A stretch of 64,000 bases of DNA from Mycetocola manganoxydans (GTDB lineage Bacteria; Actinomycetota; Actinomycetes; Actinomycetales; Microbacteriaceae), in contig NZ_RCUV01000003.1 of the NCBI RefSeq assembly GCF_003667545.1, forward strand, positions 1 to 64,000. The letters are read 5' to 3'. Shown here piece by piece: positions 11,486 to 52,391 of the stretch; positions within the stretch are counted from its first letter, which is position 1, and each line of letters opens with the position of its first letter. The position numbers were made by a program, and so were the translations under genes. The notes under the pieces are model-generated. The model ran no database searches. It saw only the letters and a program-made list of their open reading frames with translations, and was not told where the DNA came from.

Positions 11486-14400
11486 CTACGCGTCTCGCGC
11501 GGCCCGTCGCGCGAGACGTCGCTCGCGGGCGCCCTCGACGAGGTTGTAGAGCGTCGGCAGCACGATGAGCGTGAGGAACGTCGACGATACGAGCCCGCCG
11601 ATGACGACGATCGCGAGCGGCTGCGAGATGAAGCCGCCGTGACCGGTGATGCCGAGAGCCATGGGCACGAGCGCGAAGATCGTCGCCAGCGCGGTCATGA
11701 GAATCGGGCGGAGCCTGCGGCTCGAACCGTGTCGAACCGCATCGGCGACGGCCATGCCCCTGTCCCGGTACTGGTTGACGAGGTCGACGAGCACGATCGC
11801 GTTGGTGACGACGATTCCGATGAGCATGAGCACACCGATGAGGGATGCCACGCCAAGCGGAACACCGGTCAGCACCTGCAGGCCGATCGCACCGGTTGCC
11901 GCGAACGGCACGGACACGAGCAGAAGCAGCGGCTGCCGCAGCGACCGGAAGGTGGCCACCATGACGACGTACACGATGAGGATCGCGGCGAGCAGGGCGA
12001 GTCCGAGCTGCTGGAATGCGGTCGACTGGTCGGCCGTCACGCCGCCAAGGGTCGCCGTGGCTCCGCCATCGAGGTCGAGCTCGTCGACCGCTGTGGCGAC
12101 CTCCGCGCTCGCTGTGCCGATGTTGTCGCTCGCCGGTGTGATCGCGACGGTTGCTGACCGCTGCCCGCGCACCGTCGTGATCGACGACGGTCCATCGACC
12201 TCGCCGACGGTCGCGAGCGAGTCGAGACGTACCGGGCCGAGCACCGTCGGAACGGTGAGGGCCGAGAGCTCATCGACGGACGCGGGCGGGTCCTCGCTCG
12301 CGAGGTAGATGCTCACGGTGGTCTCGTCGATGACGACGGTACCGATCGTCGACGGCTGCATCGCGGCAGACACGAGTCCGCCGAGCGCGACCTCGGAGTA
12401 GCCGGCCTCTGCGGCGCGAAGCCGGTCGACCTGCACCGCGATGTATGGCCGCGAGTCGCTCAGGTTGTTGGTGACCTGGCGCATCCCCTCGAGGTCTCGC
12501 GCCGCTTCGGTCACGGCATCCGTCGCCTCGCGCAGGGTCTCTTCGTCCGGAGCGGTGATGTCGACCTCGATGTCGCTGGACGCACCGAACCCACCGGATG
12601 CCGCCACCTCGATCTCGCCAGCTCCCTCGATCTCGGCGAGCTCATCGCGCACGCGGGACTGAAGGGCTTCCTGGTCGGCGTCTTCGTTCGTGGTGATCGA
12701 ATAGGTGATGCTTCCTGAGCCTCCGCCGACGAAGGCGTCGCGGATCGAGCTGCCGGAGGACCCGATCGAGAGCTGGACGCTTTCGATGTCGTCGATGTCG
12801 CGCAGGGCGTCCTCGACGAGGGTCGCCGCGGCATCCTGCGATTCGAGGCTCGCGCCGACCGGGAGGGTCTGCGACACGTTGAGCGTGTTCTGACCCGAGT
12901 CGCCGAGGAAGTTGGTCTTCATGAACGGCACGAGAGCGAGGGTCCCGCCGAGGACGAGCACGGCGAGGAGAATCGTCACGACCGAGTGCTGGAGCGTCCA
13001 GTTGAGAACCGGGAGGTAGCCCTTCTGCAGTCGCGTCGGCGAGTCGAGTTCGTCATCGATGTCACCGCCGTTCCTGCGGCCGCGGCGCGTGACGGCGCCC
13101 GAGGGAGTCGCGGACGCGGTTTCATCGGCGGAGAGCACGGCGACGGCGGGCGACTCGGAGTTCGTTGTCGCCTCGGCCGCAGCGGCAGCACCGGTGCGTT
13201 TGGGTGCCGTCAGGTGCTCGTCACCGACGATCGCCGGTGACGCGAAGACCCCGGCGGGAAGGTCGCGCGCGGTCTCTGCGGCCGGCTCGACAGGTGCGGG
13301 GGCGGCATCCTCTGCGCTCGCCGTGGCCTTCGCGACCGTCGCGGCCTTCCTGGCCTCGGCGCGGGAGACGCGCGCGGGGCGGACCCCAGTAGCCTCGCCC
13401 TTCGACTCTTTGGCGCGGAGGAACCAGTACGCGAGTACCGGCACGATCGTGAGCGAGACGAGGAGCGACGCGAGCAGTGCGATGGTCACGGTGAGCGCGA
13501 ACGGGCGGAACAGTTCCCCGGTCATGTCGCCGACGAAGGCGAGCGGGAGGAACACCGCAACGGTGGTGATCGTCGACGCGGTGATCGCGCCGGCGACCTC
13601 ACGCACAGCGGTGAGAATCGAGAAAGCACGGCCGTCAGGGCTGCGGTCCCTGGCGTTGGACATGTGGCGCTTGATGTTCTCGATGACGACGATCGAGTCG
13701 TCGACCACCCGGCCGATCGCGATCGTGAGAGCACCGAGCGTCAGGATGTTGAGGGTGTAGCCGGTGGCCTGCAGGCCGATGAACGTGATGAGCACCGACG
13801 TCGGGATGGAGATGGCGGTGACGAGCGTCGCGCGGACGTCGAGGAGGAACACGAGGATGATGAGCACCGCGAACACGAGGCCGAGCAGCCCCTCGGTCGC
13901 GAGAGCTTCGATCGATTCCTCGATGTACGGCGCCTGGTCGAAGACGATGGCGAGTTCGACGTCACTGCCGAGCGATTCTTCAAGGCCGGGGATGAGAGCG
14001 CGGACGCCTTTCGACACATCGACGGTGTTCGCTGCGGGGAGCTTCGTCACCGCGATGGTGAGCGCTGGCTGCCCGTCGACGCGCGAGATACTCGTGACGG
14101 GGTTGTCGGTGAGGGCGACGGATGCCACGTCGCCGAGAGTGCGGACCTCACCCGACGACTGTCCGACGAGCGGCAGGGCGGCGATGTCCTCGACGGAGCC
14201 CAGCTTCGACCCGGTCTGCACGGCGAAGGTGGTGTCGCTCTCGGTGATGTCACCGGCCGGCTGGAGAACACCGTTCTGCTGGAGGGTTCGGCTGATCGCC
14301 GCGGTGGTGAGGCCTGCACCCTGCAGCTCGGCGGCATCCGGGGTGATCGTGACACGCTGGCCGACGTTGCCGACCACGGCGGCTTCGCGAACGCCGTCCA

Positions 14401-14902
14401 CGTCTTCGATGTCGGGAACGGCGGTACGGGCGAGAGCATCGGAGAGGGCGTCCGTGTCGCCATCTGCTCCGGTGGCAGCGAGCTGCAGCACGGGGAGATC
14501 GTCGAGGCTGCCCGACAGGACCTGGGGGTCGACGTCGGCGGGGAGCTGGGACTTGATCCGGTTGATCGCCTGGTTGATCTTCTGCTCAGCGGTCGCGAGA
14601 TCGGTGCCGTAGGTGAACGTCGCTGAGATGAGGCTGAGGTTCGTCGACGATGTGGCCGCTGTCGATTCGAGGCCGGCGACGCCCTGGATGGCCGTCTCGA
14701 TCGGCGTGGAGACGTCGTCGTTGACCACGGCCGGCGCTGCACCGGGGTAGTTGGTGATCACGGCCAGCTGCGGGAACTGCACGCTGGGTGCGAGCTCCTG
14801 CTTGAGGCTCGTCAGCGCGATACCGCCGAACACGGCGGCGACGATGGTCACGAGCGCGATGAGCGCACGGTTTTTCATGCTCAGAACAGCGAGGGCGTGC
14901 AC
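11486..14902 (-). CDS. RND (AcrB/HAE1-type) efflux permease
   Basis: An 1138-residue inner-membrane exporter. The N-terminal helix, the porter domain motif YPGAAPAVVNDDVSTPIE, and the helix-4 proton relay GRVVDDSIVVIENIKRH with its Asp pair mark it as an AcrB-like RND pump. A second transmembrane set (IGIVVTNAIVLVDLVNQYRD) follows. Between the two halves is an Ala/Pro-rich insertion of about 120 residues (roughly 500-625). There is no membrane-fusion or outer-membrane partner nearby, as expected for a monoderm actinobacterium. Substrates could be drugs or lipids. The start at 14902 sits ~150 bases from the stop of the upstream MocR gene, so it probably has its own promoter. Confidence 0.93.
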   Translation of the reverse strand: MHALAVLSMKNRALIALVTIVAAVFGGIALTSLKQELAPSVQFPQLAVITNYPGAAPAVVNDDVSTPIETAIQGVAGLESTAATSSTNLSLISATFTYGTDLATAEQKINQAINRIKSQLPADVDPQVLSGSLDDLPVLQLAATGADGDTDALSDALARTAVPDIEDVDGVREAAVVGNVGQRVTITPDAAELQGAGLTTAAISRTLQQNGVLQPAGDITESDTTFAVQTGSKLGSVEDIAALPLVGQSSGEVRTLGDVASVALTDNPVTSISRVDGQPALTIAVTKLPAANTVDVSKGVRALIPGLEESLGSDVELAIVFDQAPYIEESIEALATEGLLGLVFAVLIILVFLLDVRATLVTAISIPTSVLITFIGLQATGYTLNILTLGALTIAIGRVVDDSIVVIENIKRHMSNARDRSPDGRAFSILTAVREVAGAITASTITTVAVFLPLAFVGDMTGELFRPFALTVTIALLASLLVSLTIVPVLAYWFLRAKESKGEATGVRPARVSRAEARKAATVAKATASAEDAAPAPVEPAAETARDLPAGVFASPAIVGDEHLTAPKRTGAAAAAEATTNSESPAVAVLSADETASATPSGAVTRRGRRNGGDIDDELDSPTRLQKGYLPVLNWTLQHSVVTILLAVLVLGGTLALVPFMKTNFLGDSGQNTLNVSQTLPVGASLESQDAAATLVEDALRDIDDIESVQLSIGSSGSSIRDAFVGGGSGSITYSITTNEDADQEALQSRVRDELAEIEGAGEIEVAASGGFGASSDIEVDITAPDEETLREATDAVTEAARDLEGMRQVTNNLSDSRPYIAVQVDRLRAAEAGYSEVALGGLVSAAMQPSTIGTVVIDETTVSIYLASEDPPASVDELSALTVPTVLGPVRLDSLATVGEVDGPSSITTVRGQRSATVAITPASDNIGTASAEVATAVDELDLDGGATATLGGVTADQSTAFQQLGLALLAAILIVYVVMVATFRSLRQPLLLLVSVPFAATGAIGLQVLTGVPLGVASLIGVLMLIGIVVTNAIVLVDLVNQYRDRGMAVADAVRHGSSRRLRPILMTALATIFALVPMALGITGHGGFISQPLAIVVIGGLVSSTFLTLIVLPTLYNLVEGARERRLARRAARDA

Positions 14903-42434: not shown

Positions 42435-43133
42435 ATGACGATCACCGCAGCCGCAGACGGCTCCGCCCTCGGCAACCCAGGGCCGGCCGGCTGGGCCTGG
42501 TACGTCGACGACCTGCACTGGGCGGCCGGCGGCTGGAAGCACGCCACCAACAACCAGGGTGAGCTCAAGGCGGTGCTTGAACTCTTCCGTGCGACAGCGC
42601 ATCTCGACGACGACCTGCTCGTACTGTGCGACAGCCAGTACGTGATCAACACCGTCACCAAGTGGATGCATGGCTGGAAGGCGAAGGGCTGGCGCAAGGG
42701 TGACGGCAAGCCCGTCATGAACCTCGAGCTCGTCAAAGAGCTCGACGAGGCGATGGCCGGTCGCCGCTACAGGTTCGAGTGGGTGCGCGGCCACGCCGGG
42801 CACCCGATGAACGAAGCCGCCGATGCCCGCGCCCGCGCTGTCTCCGAAGCGTTCCAGGCCGGTCGCCCGATTCCGCACGGGCCCGGCTGGCCGCGCGAGG
42901 GCGACGAGAAGGATGCCGCACCGCCCGCCACACGCGCAACCGAGCCCGTCGTCGATGAGGCAGTTCCTGCCGACGACGACATCGACGCCGAGGCTCCCGC
43001 ACTGTTCTCGCTCGACGACCCTGACCTCCACGAGGTCACCCTGTGGCTCACCGACGATGAGCATGTGCGGTTGCACGAGCGCGCGCGTCAGGCCGGGATC
43101 AGCGCCGAGGAACTCCTCCGCACCCTGATCTGA
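42435..43133 (+). CDS. rnhA: Ribonuclease HI with ribbon-helix-helix-like C-terminal tail
   Basis: A 232-residue protein. Residues 1-140 are an RNase HI domain that would cut the RNA strand of RNA-DNA hybrids. The acidic residues are visible in TAAADGSALGNPGPAGWAW, NNQGELKAVLE, CDSQYVINTV and HPMNEAADARA. Residues ~145-190 are a Pro/Ala/Asp-rich linker. The last ~38 residues (HEVTLWLTDDEHVRL, then ERARQAGISAEELLRTLI) look like one strand and two helices of a ribbon-helix-helix unit, which is unusual for RNase HI. AAGGG lies before the ATG. The stop is four bases from the convergent tetR stop. Confidence 0.88.
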   Translation: MTITAAADGSALGNPGPAGWAWYVDDLHWAAGGWKHATNNQGELKAVLELFRATAHLDDDLLVLCDSQYVINTVTKWMHGWKAKGWRKGDGKPVMNLELVKELDEAMAGRRYRFEWVRGHAGHPMNEAADARARAVSEAFQAGRPIPHGPGWPREGDEKDAAPPATRATEPVVDEAVPADDDIDAEAPALFSLDDPDLHEVTLWLTDDEHVRLHERARQAGISAEELLRTLI

Positions 43134-43137
43134 GCGC

Positions 43138-43806
43138 TCAGCTGATCGGTTCGGTCAGCGCGTGCACGAGCGCCGGCAGTGCCGCGCGCGCGAGCGGAGG
43201 GGCGGAGACGGAGTCGCCGTCGTCTCCCTCGAGGATCGCGGCCTGCATGGCCGATTCATAGAGGTTGACGATGATGCCGATGGCTTCGATCGGCTCGATC
43301 GTGAACCGCAGGCCGACGGAGCCGACGGCCGCATCGATCTGCTCGGTCAGCTGCTCGAGGAAGTTCCGCTGGTAGGCGACATAACTCGCGGCGACCTGCG
43401 CGTTCCTCATGGCGAGCAGTTTGAACTCCGACTGCACGATGCACCAGCGGCGGTCGTCCGACTGCAGCTCGAGGAACCGGGTGACGAGTTCGCCGAGGCT
43501 GCGCTCGGTCAGAGCTGCCTCTCCCACCTGGGGGAGGATGACGTCGACGCCCTCCTGCAGTCGCTCGAACCGGATGCGGTTCTCCCGTTCAGCGAGCGCG
43601 AAGAACAGCTCCTCCTTCGTGGCGAAGTTGGAGTAGAACGCGCCCCGGGTGAACCCGGCGCGCTCACTGATCATCTCGACGGATGCCGCGTGGACACCCG
43701 TCTCTGCGAACACCTCATACGCGGCGTCGATAAGTCGATCCCGCGTCTTTCGACGCCGGGCGCTTTCGACCTGGGCGGTCTCAGCGGTCTCAATCTCCGG
43801 GGGCAT
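43138..43806 (-). CDS. TetR family repressor, likely of the MMPL operon
   Basis: A 222-residue protein. Its TetR DNA-binding domain is near residues 18-65 (RDRLIDAAYEVFAETGVHAASVEMISERAGFTRGAFYSNFATKEELF); the helical ligand and dimer domain follows (residues 80-220). The long acidic N-terminal extension (about 17 residues) is variable. It is divergent from the MMPL transporter gene, with two matching GATACA-N4-TGTATC dyads between them, so it probably represses the exporter operon and itself. Confidence 0.93.
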   Translation of the reverse strand: MPPEIETAETAQVESARRRKTRDRLIDAAYEVFAETGVHAASVEMISERAGFTRGAFYSNFATKEELFFALAERENRIRFERLQEGVDVILPQVGEAALTERSLGELVTRFLELQSDDRRWCIVQSEFKLLAMRNAQVAASYVAYQRNFLEQLTEQIDAAVGSVGLRFTIEPIEAIGIIVNLYESAMQAAILEGDDGDSVSAPPLARAALPALVHALTEPIS

Positions 43807-43832: not shown

Positions 43833-43882
43833 CGATACATCAGTGTATCGGATACATTCGTGAAGCGGATACAACGGTGTAT
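43833..43882. promoter_or_regulatory. Two TetR-type operators between tetR and the MMPL gene
   Basis: CGATACA-TCAG-TGTATCG (43833-43850) is a perfect dyad. ATACA-ACGG-TGTAT (43869-43882) repeats the design with centres 34 bases apart. A spare half-site GGATACA lies at 43850-43856. Confidence 0.75.
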
Positions 43883-43929
43883 TTCCCGAACGCAAAACGC
43901 CTCTCCATCCCTCATTTTCAGGAGCCCCT

Positions 43930-46716
43930 GTGTCCTCTCTGCTGTATTCACTTGGACGATGGGCGTTCCGCGCTCGCGGAATCGTCGTGGGTGCCTGGAT
44001 CCTCATCCTCGCGCTCATCGGCGGCGGCGCCCTCCTCTTCAACCAGGGCCTCGACAACGCGATCTCCATCCCCGGCACCGAATCCCAGGCAGCGCTCGAC
44101 TCGCTCTCGACGACGTTCCCCCAGGTGAGCGGGGCGAGCGCCCAGGTGATCGTCGTCGCAGCGGACGGTGACACCGTGACGGACCTCGAGTCGCAGATCG
44201 AGGCATCCGTCGACGCCCTCTCCGACCTCGACCAGGTTGCCGGCGCCGTCTCACCGTTCGACGAGAACGTTTCTGGCGCGGTCAACGAGGACGAGACCGC
44301 CGGGCTCATCAGCATCCAGCTCGATGGTGAGACCGCCGACATCACCGCGGATACCAAGGACGCGCTGCGCGCCGAGATCGATGACCTCAAGGAAGCCCTC
44401 CCGGATGGAGCGGTCGCTGAGCTCGGCGGCCAGCTGTTCAGCAACAACCTGCCGACCCTCTCCATCGTGGAACTCGTCGGTGTCGCCGTCGCGCTCGTGG
44501 TGCTCATTCTCACCTTCGGCTCGTTCCTCGCAGCCGGGATGCCGCTTCTCACCGCCCTGCTCGGTGTCGGCATTTCAATGGCCCTGATCTTCCTCGCGAC
44601 GGCGTTCAGTTCGATCAACTCGACGACTCCCATGCTCGCGCTCATGCTCGGACTGGCGGTCGGGATCGACTATGCCCTCTTCATCATCGCGAGACACCAG
44701 GAACAGCTCCGAGGAGACATGTCTGCCGAGGAATCGGCGGCGCGCTCCACCGCGACGGCCGGTTCCGCCGTCATCTTCGCCGGCCTGACCGTCATCATCG
44801 CGCTGCTCGGCCTCGGCGTCGCCGGCATCCCGTTCCTCACCACCATGGGTGTCGCCGCCGCGGCAGGAGTCGCCGTCGCCGTGCTCGTCTCGATCACACT
44901 CATCCCCGCACTGCTCGGCTTCGCGGGCGACCGGCTGCGCCCCAAGCCGAAGAAACCGTCGCGCCGGAAGCGCAAGGCCCACGCCGCAGCCGCGGCGTCG
45001 GCCGAAGCACCCGTCGCCGCCCCGAAGGCCGAGCACCGCCCGAACCGGTTCTTCACCGGCTGGGTTCGCGCCGTCACCCGGTTCCCCATCGTCACGATCC
45101 TCGCCGTCATCGCCGTCCTCGGCATGGCAGCCCTCCCCGCTCTCGGGTTGCGTCTCGCGCTGCCGGATGCCGGTGGGTTGCCTGCGGACGATCCCGCCCG
45201 CGTCACCTATGACCTCGTCTCGGACAACTTCGGTGAGGGATTCAACGGACCCCTCATCGTCACCGGTTCCATCGTCACTTCGACCGACCCGCTCGGCCTC
45301 ATGGACGACCTCAAGAACGAGATCGAGGACCTCGACGGGGTCGTCGCCGTCCCCCTCGCAACACCGAACGAGACCGCGGACACCGGAATCATCCAGGTGA
45401 TCACCGACGGCGCCCCTGACTCCGAGGAGACCAAGGCCGTTGTCGCCGAGATCCGCGAGATGCACGACTACTTCCTCGAGGAGTACGACGTCGACCTCTC
45501 CGTCACCGGGTTCACCGCCGTCGGCATCGATGTCTCGGACAAGCTCGGAAACGCACTGCTGCCGTTCGGTCTCATCGTCGTCGGACTCTCGCTGATCCTG
45601 CTCACCATGGTGTTCCGGTCGATCTGGGTGCCGATCAAGGCGACCCTCGGCTACCTGCTCAGCGTCGCCGCATCGTTCGGCATCGTCGCGCTGGTCTTCG
45701 AATACGGCTGGTTCGCAGACGCGCTCCACGTCTCCCAGGGGCCGGTGATCAGCTTCATGCCGATCATCCTCATGGGTGTGCTGTTCGGCCTCGCGATGGA
45801 CTACGAAGTCTTCCTCGTCGCCCGGATGCGCGAGGACTACGTCCACTCCGGCAAGGCGCGCGAATCGGTCGAGACCGGTTTCGTCGGCTCGGCCAAGGTC
45901 GTGACCGCAGCCGCCGTGATCATGTTCGCCGTCTTCGCCGCGTTCGTTCCCGAGGGCGACGTCAACATCAAGCCGATCGCGCTCGGCCTCGCCGTTGGTG
46001 TCTTCGTCGACGCCTTCATCGTCCGGATGACGCTGGTCCCCGCCGTCCTCGCGCTCCTCGGCGAGAAGGCCTGGTGGATCCCCAGGTGGCTCGACCGCAG
46101 CCTGCCGTCGTTCGACGTCGAGGGCGAGGGGCTGCACCGCGAGATCGAGTTGCGGGAGTGGCCGACGGCGTCTTCGACGGACATCGTCAGCGCTGAGGGC
46201 CTGTTCCTCGCCGGCGCTCGGGACCCGCTGTTTGCGGGCGTCGACGTCTCGCTGCCCGATGGCGGCACCCTCATCGTCTCCGGCAGCAGGGAGGCGAGCG
46301 TCACCGCTCTGCTCCTGACGCTCTCCGGACGCATGAAAGCCGACGACGGGAAGCTCAAGGTTGCCGGATACGTTCTGCCGGTTCGCACGGCATCCGTCCG
46401 CGCACGGGTCGCGTTCGTCTCGCTGAGCGAGGCCCTCGACCCCGTTCGCACGGTCACCGACGCCCTCCGCGAGTCGCCGCGGATCATCACTCTCGATGGC
46501 ATCGACACGGTGACGGATGCCGTCACTCGCCGCAATCTCCGCGACGCCCTCTCGGATGCACAATCCGAGGCATCCGCGAATGAACGGCCCCTCGCCGTCG
46601 TCGTGGGCACCGCGTTCCCGGACGCACTCGCCGAGGTTGTTCCCGGAGCAGCCGGCGCCGTCCACGTCGCCCTCACATTCTCAGACCTGTCGCACGAAGC
46701 AGAGGTACCCGCATGA
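43930..46716 (+). CDS. MMPL family transporter with fused degenerate ABC-ATPase-like domain
   Basis: A 928-residue protein. Residues 1-~720 form an MMPL/RND exporter with two sets of helices; each has the proton-relay motif (GLAVGIDYALFIIARHQE and GLAMDYEVFLVARMRE). A basic Ala-rich linker lies near residues 340-370. From ~730 to 928 there is a separate soluble domain whose order (a strand, GGTLIVSGSREASVTALLLTLSG, KLKVAGYVLP, RIITLDGIDTVTDAVTRRNL, AVVVGTAFP) mirrors an ABC ATPase. It lacks the Walker A lysine and the LSGGQ signature. It overlaps the YhgE/Pip gene by four bases. Lipid or drug export is the usual MMPL role. Confidence 0.9.
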   Translation: MSSLLYSLGRWAFRARGIVVGAWILILALIGGGALLFNQGLDNAISIPGTESQAALDSLSTTFPQVSGASAQVIVVAADGDTVTDLESQIEASVDALSDLDQVAGAVSPFDENVSGAVNEDETAGLISIQLDGETADITADTKDALRAEIDDLKEALPDGAVAELGGQLFSNNLPTLSIVELVGVAVALVVLILTFGSFLAAGMPLLTALLGVGISMALIFLATAFSSINSTTPMLALMLGLAVGIDYALFIIARHQEQLRGDMSAEESAARSTATAGSAVIFAGLTVIIALLGLGVAGIPFLTTMGVAAAAGVAVAVLVSITLIPALLGFAGDRLRPKPKKPSRRKRKAHAAAAASAEAPVAAPKAEHRPNRFFTGWVRAVTRFPIVTILAVIAVLGMAALPALGLRLALPDAGGLPADDPARVTYDLVSDNFGEGFNGPLIVTGSIVTSTDPLGLMDDLKNEIEDLDGVVAVPLATPNETADTGIIQVITDGAPDSEETKAVVAEIREMHDYFLEEYDVDLSVTGFTAVGIDVSDKLGNALLPFGLIVVGLSLILLTMVFRSIWVPIKATLGYLLSVAASFGIVALVFEYGWFADALHVSQGPVISFMPIILMGVLFGLAMDYEVFLVARMREDYVHSGKARESVETGFVGSAKVVTAAAVIMFAVFAAFVPEGDVNIKPIALGLAVGVFVDAFIVRMTLVPAVLALLGEKAWWIPRWLDRSLPSFDVEGEGLHREIELREWPTASSTDIVSAEGLFLAGARDPLFAGVDVSLPDGGTLIVSGSREASVTALLLTLSGRMKADDGKLKVAGYVLPVRTASVRARVAFVSLSEALDPVRTVTDALRESPRIITLDGIDTVTDAVTRRNLRDALSDAQSEASANERPLAVVVGTAFPDALAEVVPGAAGAVHVALTFSDLSHEAEVPA

Positions 46717-48656
46717 GCACTCCACTCGCACGATTCGAATCAGCCCGCGCCTCAGGCCGGGTGACCTGGCTGTCGATCCTCGGCATCATCCTCGTGCCGC
46801 TCGTCGTCGCCGGGGTGCTGGTGTGGGCGTTCTGGAACCCCCAGGACCGGCTGGAGCAGGTGAACGGGGCGATCGTGAACAACGACTCCCCCGTCGAACT
46901 CGACGGCCAGACGGTTCCGCTGGGGCGCCAGCTCGCCGCGGGTCTCGTCGGAGGCGACGAGTCGAGCGATACCAACTACTCCTGGGTGATCACCGACGAA
47001 GAAGACGCAGCGGACGGCCTCAGCTCCGGCGAGTTCGCCGCCGTCGTGACCATTCCCGAGAACTTCTCCGCTGCAGCCACCTCATTCTCCGGTGAGGCTT
47101 CTGCCGCCGAAAAGGCGACCATCGACGTGACGACGAGCGACAAGAGTCGCCTCGTTGATGACGCTGTCAGCCAGGTCATCACCACAACGGCCGCCGGACT
47201 CGTCGGAAACGAGCTGACCACGACGTACCTCGAGAACATCTACGTCGGATTCAACAGCCTCGGCGACCAGCTCGGTACGGCGGCGGATGGTGCAGCCGAA
47301 CTCGGCGACGGTGCCGACACTCTCGCAGACGGCGCTGCAACGCTCGCCGATGGAACGACCGAGCTCGCCGCCGGAACCGCCGAGCTCTCCACGGGGGCTT
47401 CGGGCCTCGCGACCGGAATCACCTCCTACGTGGGCGGTGTCTCGCAACTCTCGGGTGGACTCGCCGATCTGAACAGTTCGACGAGCGCCCTCCCGACGCA
47501 GGTGCAGGGCCTTGCGACCGGTGCCGCCGGAATCGCTACCGGCGTCGACAGCCTCATCGGAACCGTCGAGGAACAGAGCGGGCTTCTCGCCCAGGTGGCT
47601 CAGGGATGTGACCCGCTCACGGATTCGTACTGCCTCGCCGTACTCCAGTACCTTCAGGCCGCGCAAGAGGCCAACGCCGCGAACCCCAATGCGGCGGCCC
47701 AGCTGAGCGCGGGTGCACAGTCCGTCGCCTCCGGTGCGCAGTCGCTCGCCGACGGCATCCCCGCCCTCACGGGTGGAATCTCGCAGCTCGCGACCGCCGC
47801 TTCGACTCTGTCCACCGCCGGCACGGAACTCAGTTCGGGTGCGACGCAACTCTCGAGTGGGGTCAGCGAGCTGAGCACTGGCACGACGGGTCTGGCCGAG
47901 GGAGCAACCGGTTTGTCCGAAGGTGTGACAGGTGTCGCCGGCGGCGTCAACAGCCTGGCCGATGGACTCGCGGAGGCGGTCGAGGCCATCCCGAGCTACT
48001 CGGAATCCGACCGCAGAAACCTCGCCGACGTCGTCGCCGAGCCTGTTGTCACCGACGGCGAAGACGCCCTCTCACTCGGCACGGCAGGCGTTCCGTTCTA
48101 CGCGGCGCTCGCCCTCTGGCTCGGCGCCTTCGGCAGTCTCATCGTCCTCCGGGCGAAGCCCGTGCGGTCGCTCGGGTCCACCCGGCCATCGATCCTGCTC
48201 GCCCTTCGCACCTGGGCCCCGGCCGCTGCGGTCGGTGCTGTGCAGGGCGTTCTCGTCGCCGGCATCCTCCAGCCGCTCCTCGACCTCGAGGTCGGCGCGT
48301 GGATCGGGTTCGCCGCGCTCGCGGCCCTCACCGGCATCGCCTTCTCGGCAGCGAACCAGGCCCTCAACGCCGTCTTCGGAGGCGCAGGCCGGTTCGTGTC
48401 GATGATCGTAGCCCTCGTGCTCATCGCGACGAGCATCATCGCCACGGTGCCGGCGGCCCTTGATCAGGCTCTGACGTTCCTGCCGGTGCAACCAGCGGTG
48501 AACGCGTTCCACGCGGTGGTCACTTCCGGTGGAGGCCTCGGCGCCGCCATCGTCGGGCTCGTGCTGTGGACGGCTGGATCCCTCATCGCGACGACGATCG
48601 CGATCGCGAAGTCCCGAACGGTGACGGTGCGCCAGTTGGTGCCACGCACCGCTTAG
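46713..48656 (+). CDS. YhgE/Pip family membrane protein
   Basis: A 647-residue protein. One N-terminal helix (residues ~18-42) is followed by a Pip-type extracytoplasmic domain (IVNNDSPVELDGQTVPLGRQL), then a long stretch (about 190-425) of seven-residue repeats of the L-x-x-G-x-x-x type (LADGAATLADGTTELAAG and so on). Five C-terminal helices follow from ~455. This is the plan of YhgE/Pip proteins, related to phage-infection protein and ESX-type or MMPL-linked secretion components. It is co-translated with the MMPL gene. Two cysteines near residue 290 (GCDPLTDSYC) could form a disulfide. Confidence 0.9.
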   Translation: MSTPLARFESARASGRVTWLSILGIILVPLVVAGVLVWAFWNPQDRLEQVNGAIVNNDSPVELDGQTVPLGRQLAAGLVGGDESSDTNYSWVITDEEDAADGLSSGEFAAVVTIPENFSAAATSFSGEASAAEKATIDVTTSDKSRLVDDAVSQVITTTAAGLVGNELTTTYLENIYVGFNSLGDQLGTAADGAAELGDGADTLADGAATLADGTTELAAGTAELSTGASGLATGITSYVGGVSQLSGGLADLNSSTSALPTQVQGLATGAAGIATGVDSLIGTVEEQSGLLAQVAQGCDPLTDSYCLAVLQYLQAAQEANAANPNAAAQLSAGAQSVASGAQSLADGIPALTGGISQLATAASTLSTAGTELSSGATQLSSGVSELSTGTTGLAEGATGLSEGVTGVAGGVNSLADGLAEAVEAIPSYSESDRRNLADVVAEPVVTDGEDALSLGTAGVPFYAALALWLGAFGSLIVLRAKPVRSLGSTRPSILLALRTWAPAAAVGAVQGVLVAGILQPLLDLEVGAWIGFAALAALTGIAFSAANQALNAVFGGAGRFVSMIVALVLIATSIIATVPAALDQALTFLPVQPAVNAFHAVVTSGGGLGAAIVGLVLWTAGSLIATTIAIAKSRTVTVRQLVPRTA

Positions 48657-49637: not shown

Positions 49638-49933
49638 CGGTGTCCGCTGGCGATCTGTTCGTGGTGGTGGATTACCTCAGCGACGACGAAGTTGAACCAT
49701 TTCTCGGCGAAAGCGGGGTCGAGATGCGCCTCTTCGGCGAGTCCGCGGAGACGGGCGATCTGACGTTTCTCGCGCTCGGGATCCGCGGGCGGGAGACCGT
49801 GCTCGGCTTTCAGCGTTCCGACCTGCTGAGTCGCCTTGAACCGCTCAGCCAGCATGTGGATGAGGGCGGCATCGATGTTGTCGATGCTCCGTCTCAGACT
49901 GGTGAGCTGCGCGGTTACTTCGTCATCGGCCAT
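49634..49933 (-). CDS. Chorismate mutase, AroQ type
   Basis: A 99-residue all-helical protein: SLRRSIDNIDAALIHMLAERFKATQQVGTLKAEHGLP, then DPEREKRQIARLRGLAEEAHLDPAFAEKWF. Arg and Lys residues at the expected places (RRSID, RF, VGTLKAEH, DPERE) would bind chorismate. The product is prephenate for Phe/Tyr synthesis. It is a stand-alone, intracellular type with no signal peptide. It is first in a two-gene unit with the SDR. Confidence 0.92.
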   Translation of the reverse strand: MADDEVTAQLTSLRRSIDNIDAALIHMLAERFKATQQVGTLKAEHGLPPADPEREKRQIARLRGLAEEAHLDPAFAEKWFNFVVAEVIHHHEQIASGHR

Positions 49934-49981
49934 GCTCTCAATCTACCGCCAGCGCGCCTGCGACTCCTTCGACAGGCCCGG

Positions 49982-50080
49982 ACCCCCCGGGCGGGGGGTT
50001 TACATCACCGGGCAAAGAGAGGACAAATGCTTCTCAGAGGGGGTTCTATGGCCGTGGCGTCTGAGCCTCGGCCCGGAGAG
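49982..50080 (+). promoter_or_regulatory. Structured leader ahead of the metallophosphoesterase gene
   Basis: A strong hairpin ACCCCCC-GGGC-GGGGGGT (49982-49999) is followed by nested pairings CCGGGC/GCCCGG (50008-50013 with 50071-50076) and CTCAGA/TCTGAG (50033-50038 with 50060-50065). The ribosome binding site GGAGAGAGG follows at once. I do not recognise a known riboswitch class. Confidence 0.4.
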
Positions 50081-50090
50081 AGGCCATCCC

Positions 50091-52391
50091 GTGAAAACCT
50101 TCCGCGCCCTTGTCACCGTCACCACGATGGCGGTTGCTGCCGTCCTGCTGACCGCGCCACCCGCCTCAGCGGCGGACACTGTCGTGAGTGCGTCCGCTGT
50201 CGCCGATACGTATACGGCGTCGTCGTCGCCGTCGACGAACTACGGCACGAGTGCGTCGCTCGCCGCCTACTCCACGCCGGGAATCACGTCGCTTCTGCGT
50301 TTCACCATTCCCGCGACACCCGCAGGCCAGACCCTCACCGGGGCCGTCCTGCGACTGAGCACGACGAACATCACCTCAGCCGGATCAGCGAACCCGGCCA
50401 ACGTCCGCACCGCCGCAGACACCTGGTCCGAAGCGTCCACCATCTACACCAACCGTCCCGCCGTGTCCGGCCCGGTGCTCGGCACCCTTCCCGGCGGCAC
50501 AGCCCCGAACACCCGCTACGCCGTGACCCTCACCCCCGCGGCACTGGCCGCAGGATCGATCACCCTCGCGATTGAAGGAACCGGCACCGACAGCCTCTGG
50601 CTCTGGTCCCGCCAGGCACCAGCCACCGCCACCCGCCCCGTCCTCGACCTCACCTACACCGACGATACGGCTCCACCACCCGACACCACCGCACCGGGTG
50701 CTCCCGCCGCACTCGCGGCATCCGTCACCGGCACCACCGTGGCGCTGAGCTGGCAGGCGTCGACGGACAACGTCGGGGTCACCGGGTACACCGTGCACCG
50801 CTCGTCCACGGCGAACTTCACCCCGACCGCGGCTACGGTGATCGCCACCGTCCCTGGCACCAGTTTCTCGGATACCGACCGGCCAGCGGGAACCTGGCAC
50901 TACCGCGTGACGGCAGGCGATGCTGCCGGCAACACGAGTGCGCCGTCATCTCCGGCGAGTGCGACCGTGTCACCCCCGGCTCAGCCGACGACGGCAAGCG
51001 TCGCCGCTGTCGCCGATACGTACACGGCATCGTCGTCGCCGTCGACGAACTACGGCACGAGTGCGTCGCTCGCCGCCTACTCCACGCCGGGAATCACATC
51101 GCTTCTGCGTTTCACCATTCCCGCGACACCCGCAGGCCAGACCCTCACCGGGGCCGTCCTGCGACTGAGCACGACGAACATCACCTCAGCCGGATCAGCG
51201 AACCCGGCCACCATCCGAACCGCCGCAGACACCTGGTCCGAAGCTGCCACCACCTACACCAACCGACCCGCCGTGTCCGGGCCGGTGCTCGGCACCCTCC
51301 CCGGCGGCACAGCCCCCAACACCCGCTACGCCGTGACCCTCACCCCCTCGGCACTGGCCGCAGGATCGATCACCCTCGCGATTGAAGGAACCGGCACCGA
51401 CAGCCTCTGGCTCTGGTCCCGCCAGGCACCAGCAACCGCCACCCGCCCCGTCCTCGACCTCACCTACACCGGAGGAACCCCGCCTCCCCCGCCGGAGACC
51501 GCAACGATCATGGCGGTCGGCGATATCGCGTGCCAGTCGGGAACCGCCATCACGTCGACGGCCTGCAGGCACGGAGAGGTGGCATCCCTCATCCGGGCAG
51601 CGAACCCCGACCGGTTCATCGGGCTCGGAGACCTGCAGTACCAGCAGGCGACCTACGCTCAGTTCATGGCATCCGGCGCCTATAACGACACGTTCGGGCC
51701 ACTCAAGCCGATCACCCTGCCGGTGCTCGGCAACCACGAGTACCTCGACTCGACGAACGGGTACTTCGATTACTTCTATGGCAGCGGGGTGTCGTCCGGT
51801 CCGCTTGGCAGCCGGCCGAACGGCTACTATTCGACGCAGATCGGCTCGTGGACCTTCATCGGCCTGAACACCGAATGCGGTACCGGCGGGGTAACGGGCG
51901 GATGTGGCGTCGGCAGCCCGCAGTACACCTGGCTGCAGGACCAACTGGCGTCGTCGAGCTCCTGCACCGTCGTGGCGACGCACCGTCCGCGCTGGTCAAC
52001 CGGCGCGAGCCACGGCTCCTACCCGCAGATGTCCGCACTGTGGGATCTGATGGCTGTGAACGGTGTGGACATCACGATCAGCGGTCACAACCACGTCAGC
52101 GAGATCTTCAAGCCGATCGGGGTCTCAGGATCAGGGTCGACCCCTGCAATGGATGCGAACGGAATCCGCGCGTTCACTGCTGGGGGCGGCGGTGCCAACA
52201 TCCAGGGCCTCACACCGACGACGGACCCGCTGATCTCAGCGCTGGAGGCCCGAAGCCGGGTGGCGTTCGGGCCTCTCGAGCTCGTCCTCGGTGATGGCGA
52301 GTATTCGTGGCGGTTCATCCCGATCTCCGGGATGACCTTCACCAACAGCGGCACCACCGGGTCATTCTCCGGATCGGATGACTGCCACTGA
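50091..52391 (+). CDS. Secreted metallophosphoesterase with two duplicated CBM96/DNRLRE-type domains and an Fn3 domain
   Basis: A 766-residue exported protein. Its signal peptide ends at ASA-AD (residue 27). Residues ~35-190 and ~305-460 are two almost identical beta-sandwich modules (ADTYTASSSPSTNYGTS, then SLLRFTIP and WSEA) of the DNRLRE/CBM96 type. Between them (~196-292) is a fibronectin type III domain (TVALSWQASTDNVGVTGYTVHR). A metallophosphatase domain follows from ~470 with AVGDIACQSG, GLGDLQYQ, GNHEY, ATHRPRW and GHNH. Extracellular phosphate release or wall and polysaccharide binding is inferred. GTG at 50091 has GGAGAGAGG upstream. Confidence 0.9.
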   Translation: MKTFRALVTVTTMAVAAVLLTAPPASAADTVVSASAVADTYTASSSPSTNYGTSASLAAYSTPGITSLLRFTIPATPAGQTLTGAVLRLSTTNITSAGSANPANVRTAADTWSEASTIYTNRPAVSGPVLGTLPGGTAPNTRYAVTLTPAALAAGSITLAIEGTGTDSLWLWSRQAPATATRPVLDLTYTDDTAPPPDTTAPGAPAALAASVTGTTVALSWQASTDNVGVTGYTVHRSSTANFTPTAATVIATVPGTSFSDTDRPAGTWHYRVTAGDAAGNTSAPSSPASATVSPPAQPTTASVAAVADTYTASSSPSTNYGTSASLAAYSTPGITSLLRFTIPATPAGQTLTGAVLRLSTTNITSAGSANPATIRTAADTWSEAATTYTNRPAVSGPVLGTLPGGTAPNTRYAVTLTPSALAAGSITLAIEGTGTDSLWLWSRQAPATATRPVLDLTYTGGTPPPPPETATIMAVGDIACQSGTAITSTACRHGEVASLIRAANPDRFIGLGDLQYQQATYAQFMASGAYNDTFGPLKPITLPVLGNHEYLDSTNGYFDYFYGSGVSSGPLGSRPNGYYSTQIGSWTFIGLNTECGTGGVTGGCGVGSPQYTWLQDQLASSSSCTVVATHRPRWSTGASHGSYPQMSALWDLMAVNGVDITISGHNHVSEIFKPIGVSGSGSTPAMDANGIRAFTAGGGGANIQGLTPTTDPLISALEARSRVAFGPLELVLGDGEYSWRFIPISGMTFTNSGTTGSFSGSDDCH
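50194..50660 (+). repeat. Intragenic duplication, copy 1 (467 bp)
   Basis: The first copy of the CBM96-type module. It aligns without gaps to copy 2 exactly 810 bases downstream; I counted about 16 base differences by eye. Confidence 0.88.
51004..51470 (+). repeat. Intragenic duplication, copy 2 (467 bp)
   Basis: The second copy of the module at 50194-50660. Most differences are silent or in one short stretch (NVRTAADTWSEASTIY versus TIRTAADTWSEAATTY). Confidence 0.88.

Follow-up and report, generated by a model that had tools for sequence, protein, structure and literature searches.

A putative pseudo-ATPase domain fused to an MMPL pump beside YhgE/Pip in Mycetocola manganoxydans and other Actinobacteria

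The stretch of DNA analysed here (the window, 64,000 nucleotides) occupies positions 1-64000 of contig NZ_RCUV01000003.1 of Mycetocola manganoxydans, whose genome is 3.06 Mb. It contains a gene for an MMPL pump with a C-terminal tail that resembles an ABC ATPase. A divergent TetR-family repressor gene lies upstream, and a YhgE/Pip gene overlaps the pump gene downstream. The features of the locus are as follows.

43138..43806, minus strand: TetR-family repressor gene, divergent to the MMPL gene (Pfam TetR_N, E-value 3.1e-15)
43834..43849, plus strand: operator-like palindrome 1, GATACATCAGTGTATC, between the TetR and MMPL genes (pattern GATACA N4 TGTAT)
43868..43883, plus strand: operator-like palindrome 2, GATACAACGGTGTATT, between the TetR and MMPL genes (same pattern)
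43930..46716, plus strand: MMPL pump gene with the fused pseudo-ABC tail, 928 residues, GTG start, stop codon counted (Pfam MMPL, E-value 3.1e-88)
46105..46176, plus strand: conserved linker PSFDVEGEG... leading from the MMPL part to the ABC-like domain, with one predicted helix (6-16 in the model)
46177..46680, plus strand: pseudo-ABC domain, residues 25-192 of the tail and about 750-917 of the protein (AlphaFold2 model and structural alignment)
46282..46305, plus strand: Walker A relic GSREASVT (alignment; the counterpart in locus L179 is GPSGSGKT)
46405..46422, plus strand: strand RVAFVS at the Q-loop position (alignment)
46480..46518, plus strand: Walker B relic RIITLDGIDTVTD, with Gly at the place of the catalytic Glu (alignment; model strand 127-131)
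46713..48656, plus strand: YhgE/Pip family membrane protein gene, 647 residues, with a four-base ATGA overlap with the MMPL gene

The MMPL part of the window protein gives way at residue 726 to a tail of 203 residues. PF03176 matches the protein in two stretches (296.4 bits against a cut-off of 20.5), which places an MMPL domain above the cut-off in both halves. Asp-Tyr pairs are the proton carriers in MmpL3, and two Asp-Tyr motifs are present here, GIDY starting at residue 245 and AMDY starting at residue 622. By pattern, the motif is present at both sites, in both MMPL halves, in all 97 bodies compared, including that of the window. The protein matches the NCBIfam MmpL3 model with an E-value of 5e-60, under the equivalog cut-off. 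Only one further frame in the genome shows strong MMPL matches; it is 767 residues long and the matches span about 670 of them, which leaves little space for a comparable tail.

The AlphaFold2 model and the structural alignment agree that the tail adopts the core fold of an ABC ATPase, which is compact and predicted with high confidence; residues 193-202, at the extreme C-terminus, have a predicted local distance difference test score (pLDDT) below 50. Eleven tail columns are invariant among 30 sequences, and linker positions P1, F3, D4, E6 and G7 are invariant in all 30. Alignment with full-length relatives revealed what the window copy has lost. The Walker A motif GxxGxGK[ST] is replaced by GSREASVT, the Walker B place reads LDGID with Gly in place of the catalytic Glu, and the Q-loop strand runs nearly straight into the helix that precedes Walker B, the helical subdomain and the signature LSGGQ being absent from the window tail. 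An active ATPase was therefore rejected for the window copy on the grounds of these four missing elements (Walker A Lys, LSGGQ, helical subdomain and catalytic Glu), and ATP hydrolysis is predicted to be unlikely. These observations confirm those of the first-pass annotation, made from the DNA alone, which had described an ABC-ATPase-like tail lacking the Walker A lysine and LSGGQ, with a counterpart of Walker B and little prospect of ATP hydrolysis. The window sequence by itself scores under the Pfam ABC_tran cut-off and shows weak similarity to the CcmA model (E-value 1.7e-7), and the former would suit a chance resemblance by an unrelated fold. That explanation was rejected as extremely improbable in view of the model and of relatives that bear a P-loop. 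PADLOC assigned no defence family to the MMPL protein or its tail.

The same arrangement is conserved in other Actinobacteria. Eighty named loci, the best 80 of 139 relatives, were fetched via the linker pattern P[SHR]FD[VI]EG[ED]G and not via Pip, a procedure that favours tails carrying that linker. They belong to the Microbacteriaceae, the Cellulomonadaceae, the Promicromonosporaceae and a few other families. In all 80 the tail lies within a frame that matches the MMPL part of the window protein, and the frame is open to the tail end. The weakest match has an E-value of 5e-152 (L090, whose frame is shortened by the locus boundary), and the remaining 79 frames exceed 900 residues. YhgE/Pip follows on the same strand in 80 of 80 loci, as judged with a profile of nine YhgE/Pip proteins from loci of the stand-alone type, and the Pip match begins at most 207 bases past the MMPL stop. 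Twenty further loci were hand-picked from matches to the tail profile: 16 hold an MMPL with a fused tail together with Pip, and four, all of one family code, hold a stand-alone domain; Pip is present in three of these four, and the contig of the remaining one ends too early. Among 198 genomes of the order, at least 54, from nine family codes (counted by hand), contain a match that starts at profile position 1 in a frame of at least 886 residues.

The downstream protein reaches the cut-off of the TIGR03061 N-terminal domain (123.7 against 96.15 bits, E-value 5.3e-36) and stays under that of the TIGR03062 C-terminal domain (76.8 against 102.2 bits, E-value 1.8e-21), with respect to which it would be a divergent member at best. 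It contains LxxG repeats. Pfam ABC2_membrane_3 matches it over the cut-off (E-value 5.6e-11, 42.6 against 31.6 bits), and by this match the YhgE/Pip product is an ABC-2-like membrane protein. The host genome has one YhgE/Pip gene as detected by TIGR03061, though PF12051 has no match in that genome. PADLOC reported a weak ZorA match (E-value 1.5e-4) at residues 286-388, a stretch that includes the LxxG-type repeats; this candidate identity was rejected as coiled-coil noise. To our knowledge, the function of YhgE/Pip proteins is poorly understood.

Across the phylum, TIGR03061 has matches in 69 of 246 genomes. Twenty of these 69 loci, mostly the strongest, were fetched. Fourteen have a stand-alone relative of the tail directly upstream of Pip, one (L179) is fused and five have none. 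The stand-alone relatives upstream of YhgE/Pip carry full-length domains. In L179, from another family of the class, the domain fused to the MMPL is full-length and has GPSGSGKT, the helical subdomain and VVDDAD. When the tail profile was run genome-wide, with 100 to 383 first-look candidates per genome of which at most 150 were scored, its best match was the gene adjoining YhgE/Pip in 14 of 17 genomes, which indicates that the tail is a fused, shortened form of the YhgE/Pip-linked ATPase family; a contig end in G163 allows no call either way. On these profile matches, the tail is evidently akin to the ATPase family that accompanies YhgE/Pip. Both arrangements, the stand-alone ATPase gene and the MMPL fusion, exist today, and the wide spread of the stand-alone state suggests that it is the older one. 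As a separate observation, the 14 stand-alone Pip-linked ATPases (L162-L171 and L175-L178) all lack LSGGQ and the catalytic Glu, Walker A is also gone in five of them (L162 and L175-L178) and it is altered in L166; an odd or dead ABC ATPase family thus seems, from its motifs, to accompany YhgE/Pip.

The motifs were surveyed in 156 domains (138 fused and 18 stand-alone) that remained of 176 after removal of 20 exact duplicates; the set still holds close relatives, and its counts are not independent cases. A Walker A that retains K or R occurs in 29 of the 138 fused domains (K in nine) and in 12 of the 18 stand-alone domains (K in five). A helical segment of at least 40 residues is present in 8 of the fused and in all of the stand-alone domains. 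Glu occupies the catalytic Walker B place in three fused domains and in no stand-alone one, 14 of the latter having Asp. LSGG-like strings occur in three fused domains, all away from the signature position, and in none of the 18 stand-alone domains. The fused tails of L144, L149, L155-L158 and L160 belong to a different branch of the window's family. They retain a segment of helical-subdomain length, but their Walker A is lost and shows a gap of one residue, a pattern of decay unlike that of the window's branch. Because 29 fused tails retain Walker A, some members of the family may still bind nucleotide. The first-pass interpretation was partly supported in this respect: the pseudo-ATPase fused to an MMPL pump beside YhgE/Pip stands, whereas the loss of Walker A is not family-wide.

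Retained Walker A motifs bear on two other explanations. The main rival holds that the tail regulates the MMPL pump itself, as a nucleotide sensor where Walker A is present and as a gate or brake where it is not, with YhgE/Pip a mere neighbour. The relatives that bear Walker A keep this explanation alive and the covalent tie of the tail to the MMPL suits it; in contrast, the nearest unfused relatives of the tail are Pip-linked ATPases, YhgE/Pip adjoins in every named locus, and the other strong MMPL frame of the genome has little room for such a tail. We consider it unlikely. A second explanation is that the tail is half of an ATPase and pairs in trans with a canonical nucleotide-binding domain (NBD), as in the degenerate sites of heterodimeric ABC exporters. 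Degenerate NBDs often pair with a canonical NBD into one working site, and the lineages with a P-loop might still bind ATP. However, a signature-length helical segment is absent in 130 of the 138 fused domains, and a tail that lacks it cannot complete the site of a partner. In addition, the window's own Walker A is gone and no ABC gene was found among the scanned genes beside the window operon, the other loci not having been searched for one. Pairing in trans is thus improbable.

Losses of Walker A were counted on a tree built from 97 MMPL bodies, from which L090 was excluded because its locus is too short. The tree was made by a quick method from the bodies only and has long branches, and the loss counts are therefore given as ranges. 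Walker A is kept in 25 rows, 24 of which read GxHxxG[KR][ST], for example in Rathayibacter and Cellulomonas. At a minimum, four changes are required when regain is permitted; a count of losses alone gives 8 to 10, and at least five once weak forks are collapsed. The ratio of nonsynonymous to synonymous substitution rates (dN/dS) of the tails has a median of 0.19 in 22 disjoint pairs without Walker A (range 0.04-0.44) and 0.23 in nine pairs with Walker A; the MMPL bodies of the same 31 disjoint pairs give 0.13 and 0.14. With 220 overlapping pairs, medians of 0.26 and 0.18 were obtained. Between the window and its counterpart in Mycetocola miduiensis (L061), dN is 0.16 and dS 0.77 for the tail, and 0.08 and 0.75 for the MMPL part. 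The loss of Walker A has left the tail still under selection, with a constraint that is below that of the pump yet far from neutral. Selection has kept the fold, the linker and the position beside YhgE/Pip.

These data bear on the idea that the tail is a functionless vestige, tolerated as a C-terminal extension. The lost catalytic motifs and the poorly modelled last ten residues would fit it; the open frame to the tail end in all 80 loci, the invariant columns, the low dN/dS of the disjoint pairs without Walker A and the confident compact fold do not. We rejected vestigial filler on the selection and conservation data and give a vestige little credence. On the two points where the first-pass annotation could have failed it held up, since the fold is that of an ABC ATPase and the tail is conserved rather than filler. 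The regulatory explanation is also weakened here, as repeated decay has hit its putative nucleotide site without loss of the fold.

Transcription of the locus may be controlled by the TetR-family protein. Of the 80 related loci, six were left out because their upstream sequence is too short, and 69 of the other 74 have a TetR-like frame upstream. In the 3.06-Mb genome the pattern GATACA N4 TGTAT has two occurrences and no more, both in the gap between the TetR and MMPL genes, and a control pattern has no occurrence in the whole genome; the operator-like pair is private to this promoter. A looser pattern has 97 sites in the 80 named loci (1.28 Mb) against 0.03 expected from base composition. 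Ninety of the 97 lie close to the 5' boundary of the MMPL frame and seven further inside over-long frames, the boundary being that of the open frame and not the true start. In related loci the spacing between adjacent sites is mostly 17 bases (24 of 35), and in the window it is 34. At least one operator-like site is present in 59 of the 80 named loci, and the pattern is found in 5 of 17 further fused loci, including L179 at the 5' end of the fused frame. It also occurs in one of the 18 stand-alone loci (L175), at the 5' end of the ABC frame of an ABC-Pip pair, which hints that one regulator kind may serve both arrangements, the other 17 stand-alone loci being without the pattern.

Taken together, we think it fairly probable that the tail is a decayed NBD of the YhgE/Pip-linked ABC ATPase family, which would dock the ABC-2-like YhgE/Pip protein to an MMPL pump presumably driven by protons. 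The first-pass annotation had suggested a control or assembly role; the kinship with the Pip-linked ATPases favours docking towards YhgE/Pip over a purely internal control. A more ambitious version, which we advance tentatively, is a hybrid RND-ABC exporter, in which an ABC-2-type subunit would have swapped its ATP motor for a proton motor, and the ATPase would have been fused to the MMPL and reduced several times over to a non-catalytic docking domain. An ancestral ATPase gene, located just upstream of yhgE/pip as in other Actinobacteria, would have been fused onto the end of the MMPL gene. Most fused forms lack the helical subdomain and the signature, and Walker A has been lost several times. 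The pseudo-NBD is expected in the cytosol below the last membrane segment of the MMPL, where it may still bind the cytosolic face of YhgE/Pip and so tether the ABC-2-like subunit to the pump. Transport would be driven by protons through the intact Asp-Tyr pairs and not by ATP. The TetR repressor would act at the paired GATACA-N4-TGTATC operators, and the operon would be switched on when a ligand of TetR accumulates, perhaps the exported compound.

Several results weigh against docking. Fusion to MMPL and adjacency to Pip are by themselves no proof of binding. As noted above, 29 of the 138 fused tails retain Walker A, and in most pairs the tail has diverged faster than the MMPL body. The tail profile also matches ordinary ABC ATPases, and the tallies of 109 of 150 and 198 of 198 are thus not fusion counts. 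In G166 and G182 the tail profile finds a better match than the Pip neighbour. No tail homologue was detected beside Pip in 5 of the 20 fetched loci: L172-L174, which share one genus code far within the phylum and have YhgE/Pip, L180, where Pip is weak, and L181, where the profile finds no Pip. Finally, 21 of the 80 named loci, 12 of the 17 further fused loci and 17 of the 18 stand-alone loci do not contain the operator pattern in its exact form.

Should the tail be what is left of a Pip ATPase, kept for docking, YhgE/Pip would be the membrane half of an ABC-2-like exporter. Actinobacteria would then offer a natural series of a stand-alone ATPase, a fused full-length domain, a fused domain with Walker A only, and a fused and dead domain. 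Such a series would separate the parts of an NBD needed for catalysis from those needed for assembly only, and would bear directly on the joint action of ABC exporters and MmpL pumps on one lipid, as with DrrABC and MmpL7.

Three other genes of the window deserve mention. A second RND protein, of the AcrB/AcrD/AcrF type (1138 residues; 11486-14902, minus strand; ACR_tran, E-value 5.5e-213) is encoded in this actinobacterial host. A metallophosphatase (49836-52391, plus strand) carries two closely similar CBM96-type domains before its phosphatase part, a repeat that is absent from the tandem-array report. An RNase H-like protein (42435-43133, plus strand) has a weak NikA-like C-terminal stretch (E-value 5.6e-4, below the cut-off).

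An MMPL-ABC fusion or a Pip-linked ATPase is not described in the titles and abstracts of the open-licence literature among the matches listed, which is in line with the first-pass annotation, to which no description of such a control or assembly role was known, and is weak evidence of absence. Compared with MMPL/RND exporters such as MmpL3, with which it shares the MMPL domains and the Asp-Tyr pairs in both halves, the window family has an additional C-terminal ABC-fold tail of about 200 residues and a constant YhgE/Pip partner. The tail shares its core fold with ATPases of the CcmA/LolD/FtsE type, to which its sequence similarity is weak; in contrast to these, it lacks the Walker A Lys, LSGGQ, the helical subdomain and the catalytic Glu. 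The downstream gene belongs with the YhgE/Pip (phage infection protein) family of TIGR03061/TIGR03062 and encodes an ABC-2-like membrane domain. In other Actinobacteria, members of this family often lie behind a stand-alone ABC-ATPase-like gene, whereas the ATPase-like domain here is MMPL-fused and, by its motifs, non-catalytic. In one report, a PIP family member from Streptomyces is assigned to TC 9.B.74 alongside ABC-2 relatives (PMC3924187). A precedent is the export of phthiocerol dimycocerosate (PDIM) in Mycobacterium, in which DrrABC and MmpL7 are both reported to take part (PMC11539658), a case of one lipid whose export involves an ABC exporter as well as an MmpL pump. In that system the parts are separate and DrrABC is reported to be a true ABC transporter, whereas here an NBD that lacks its catalytic parts is fused to the MMPL pump.
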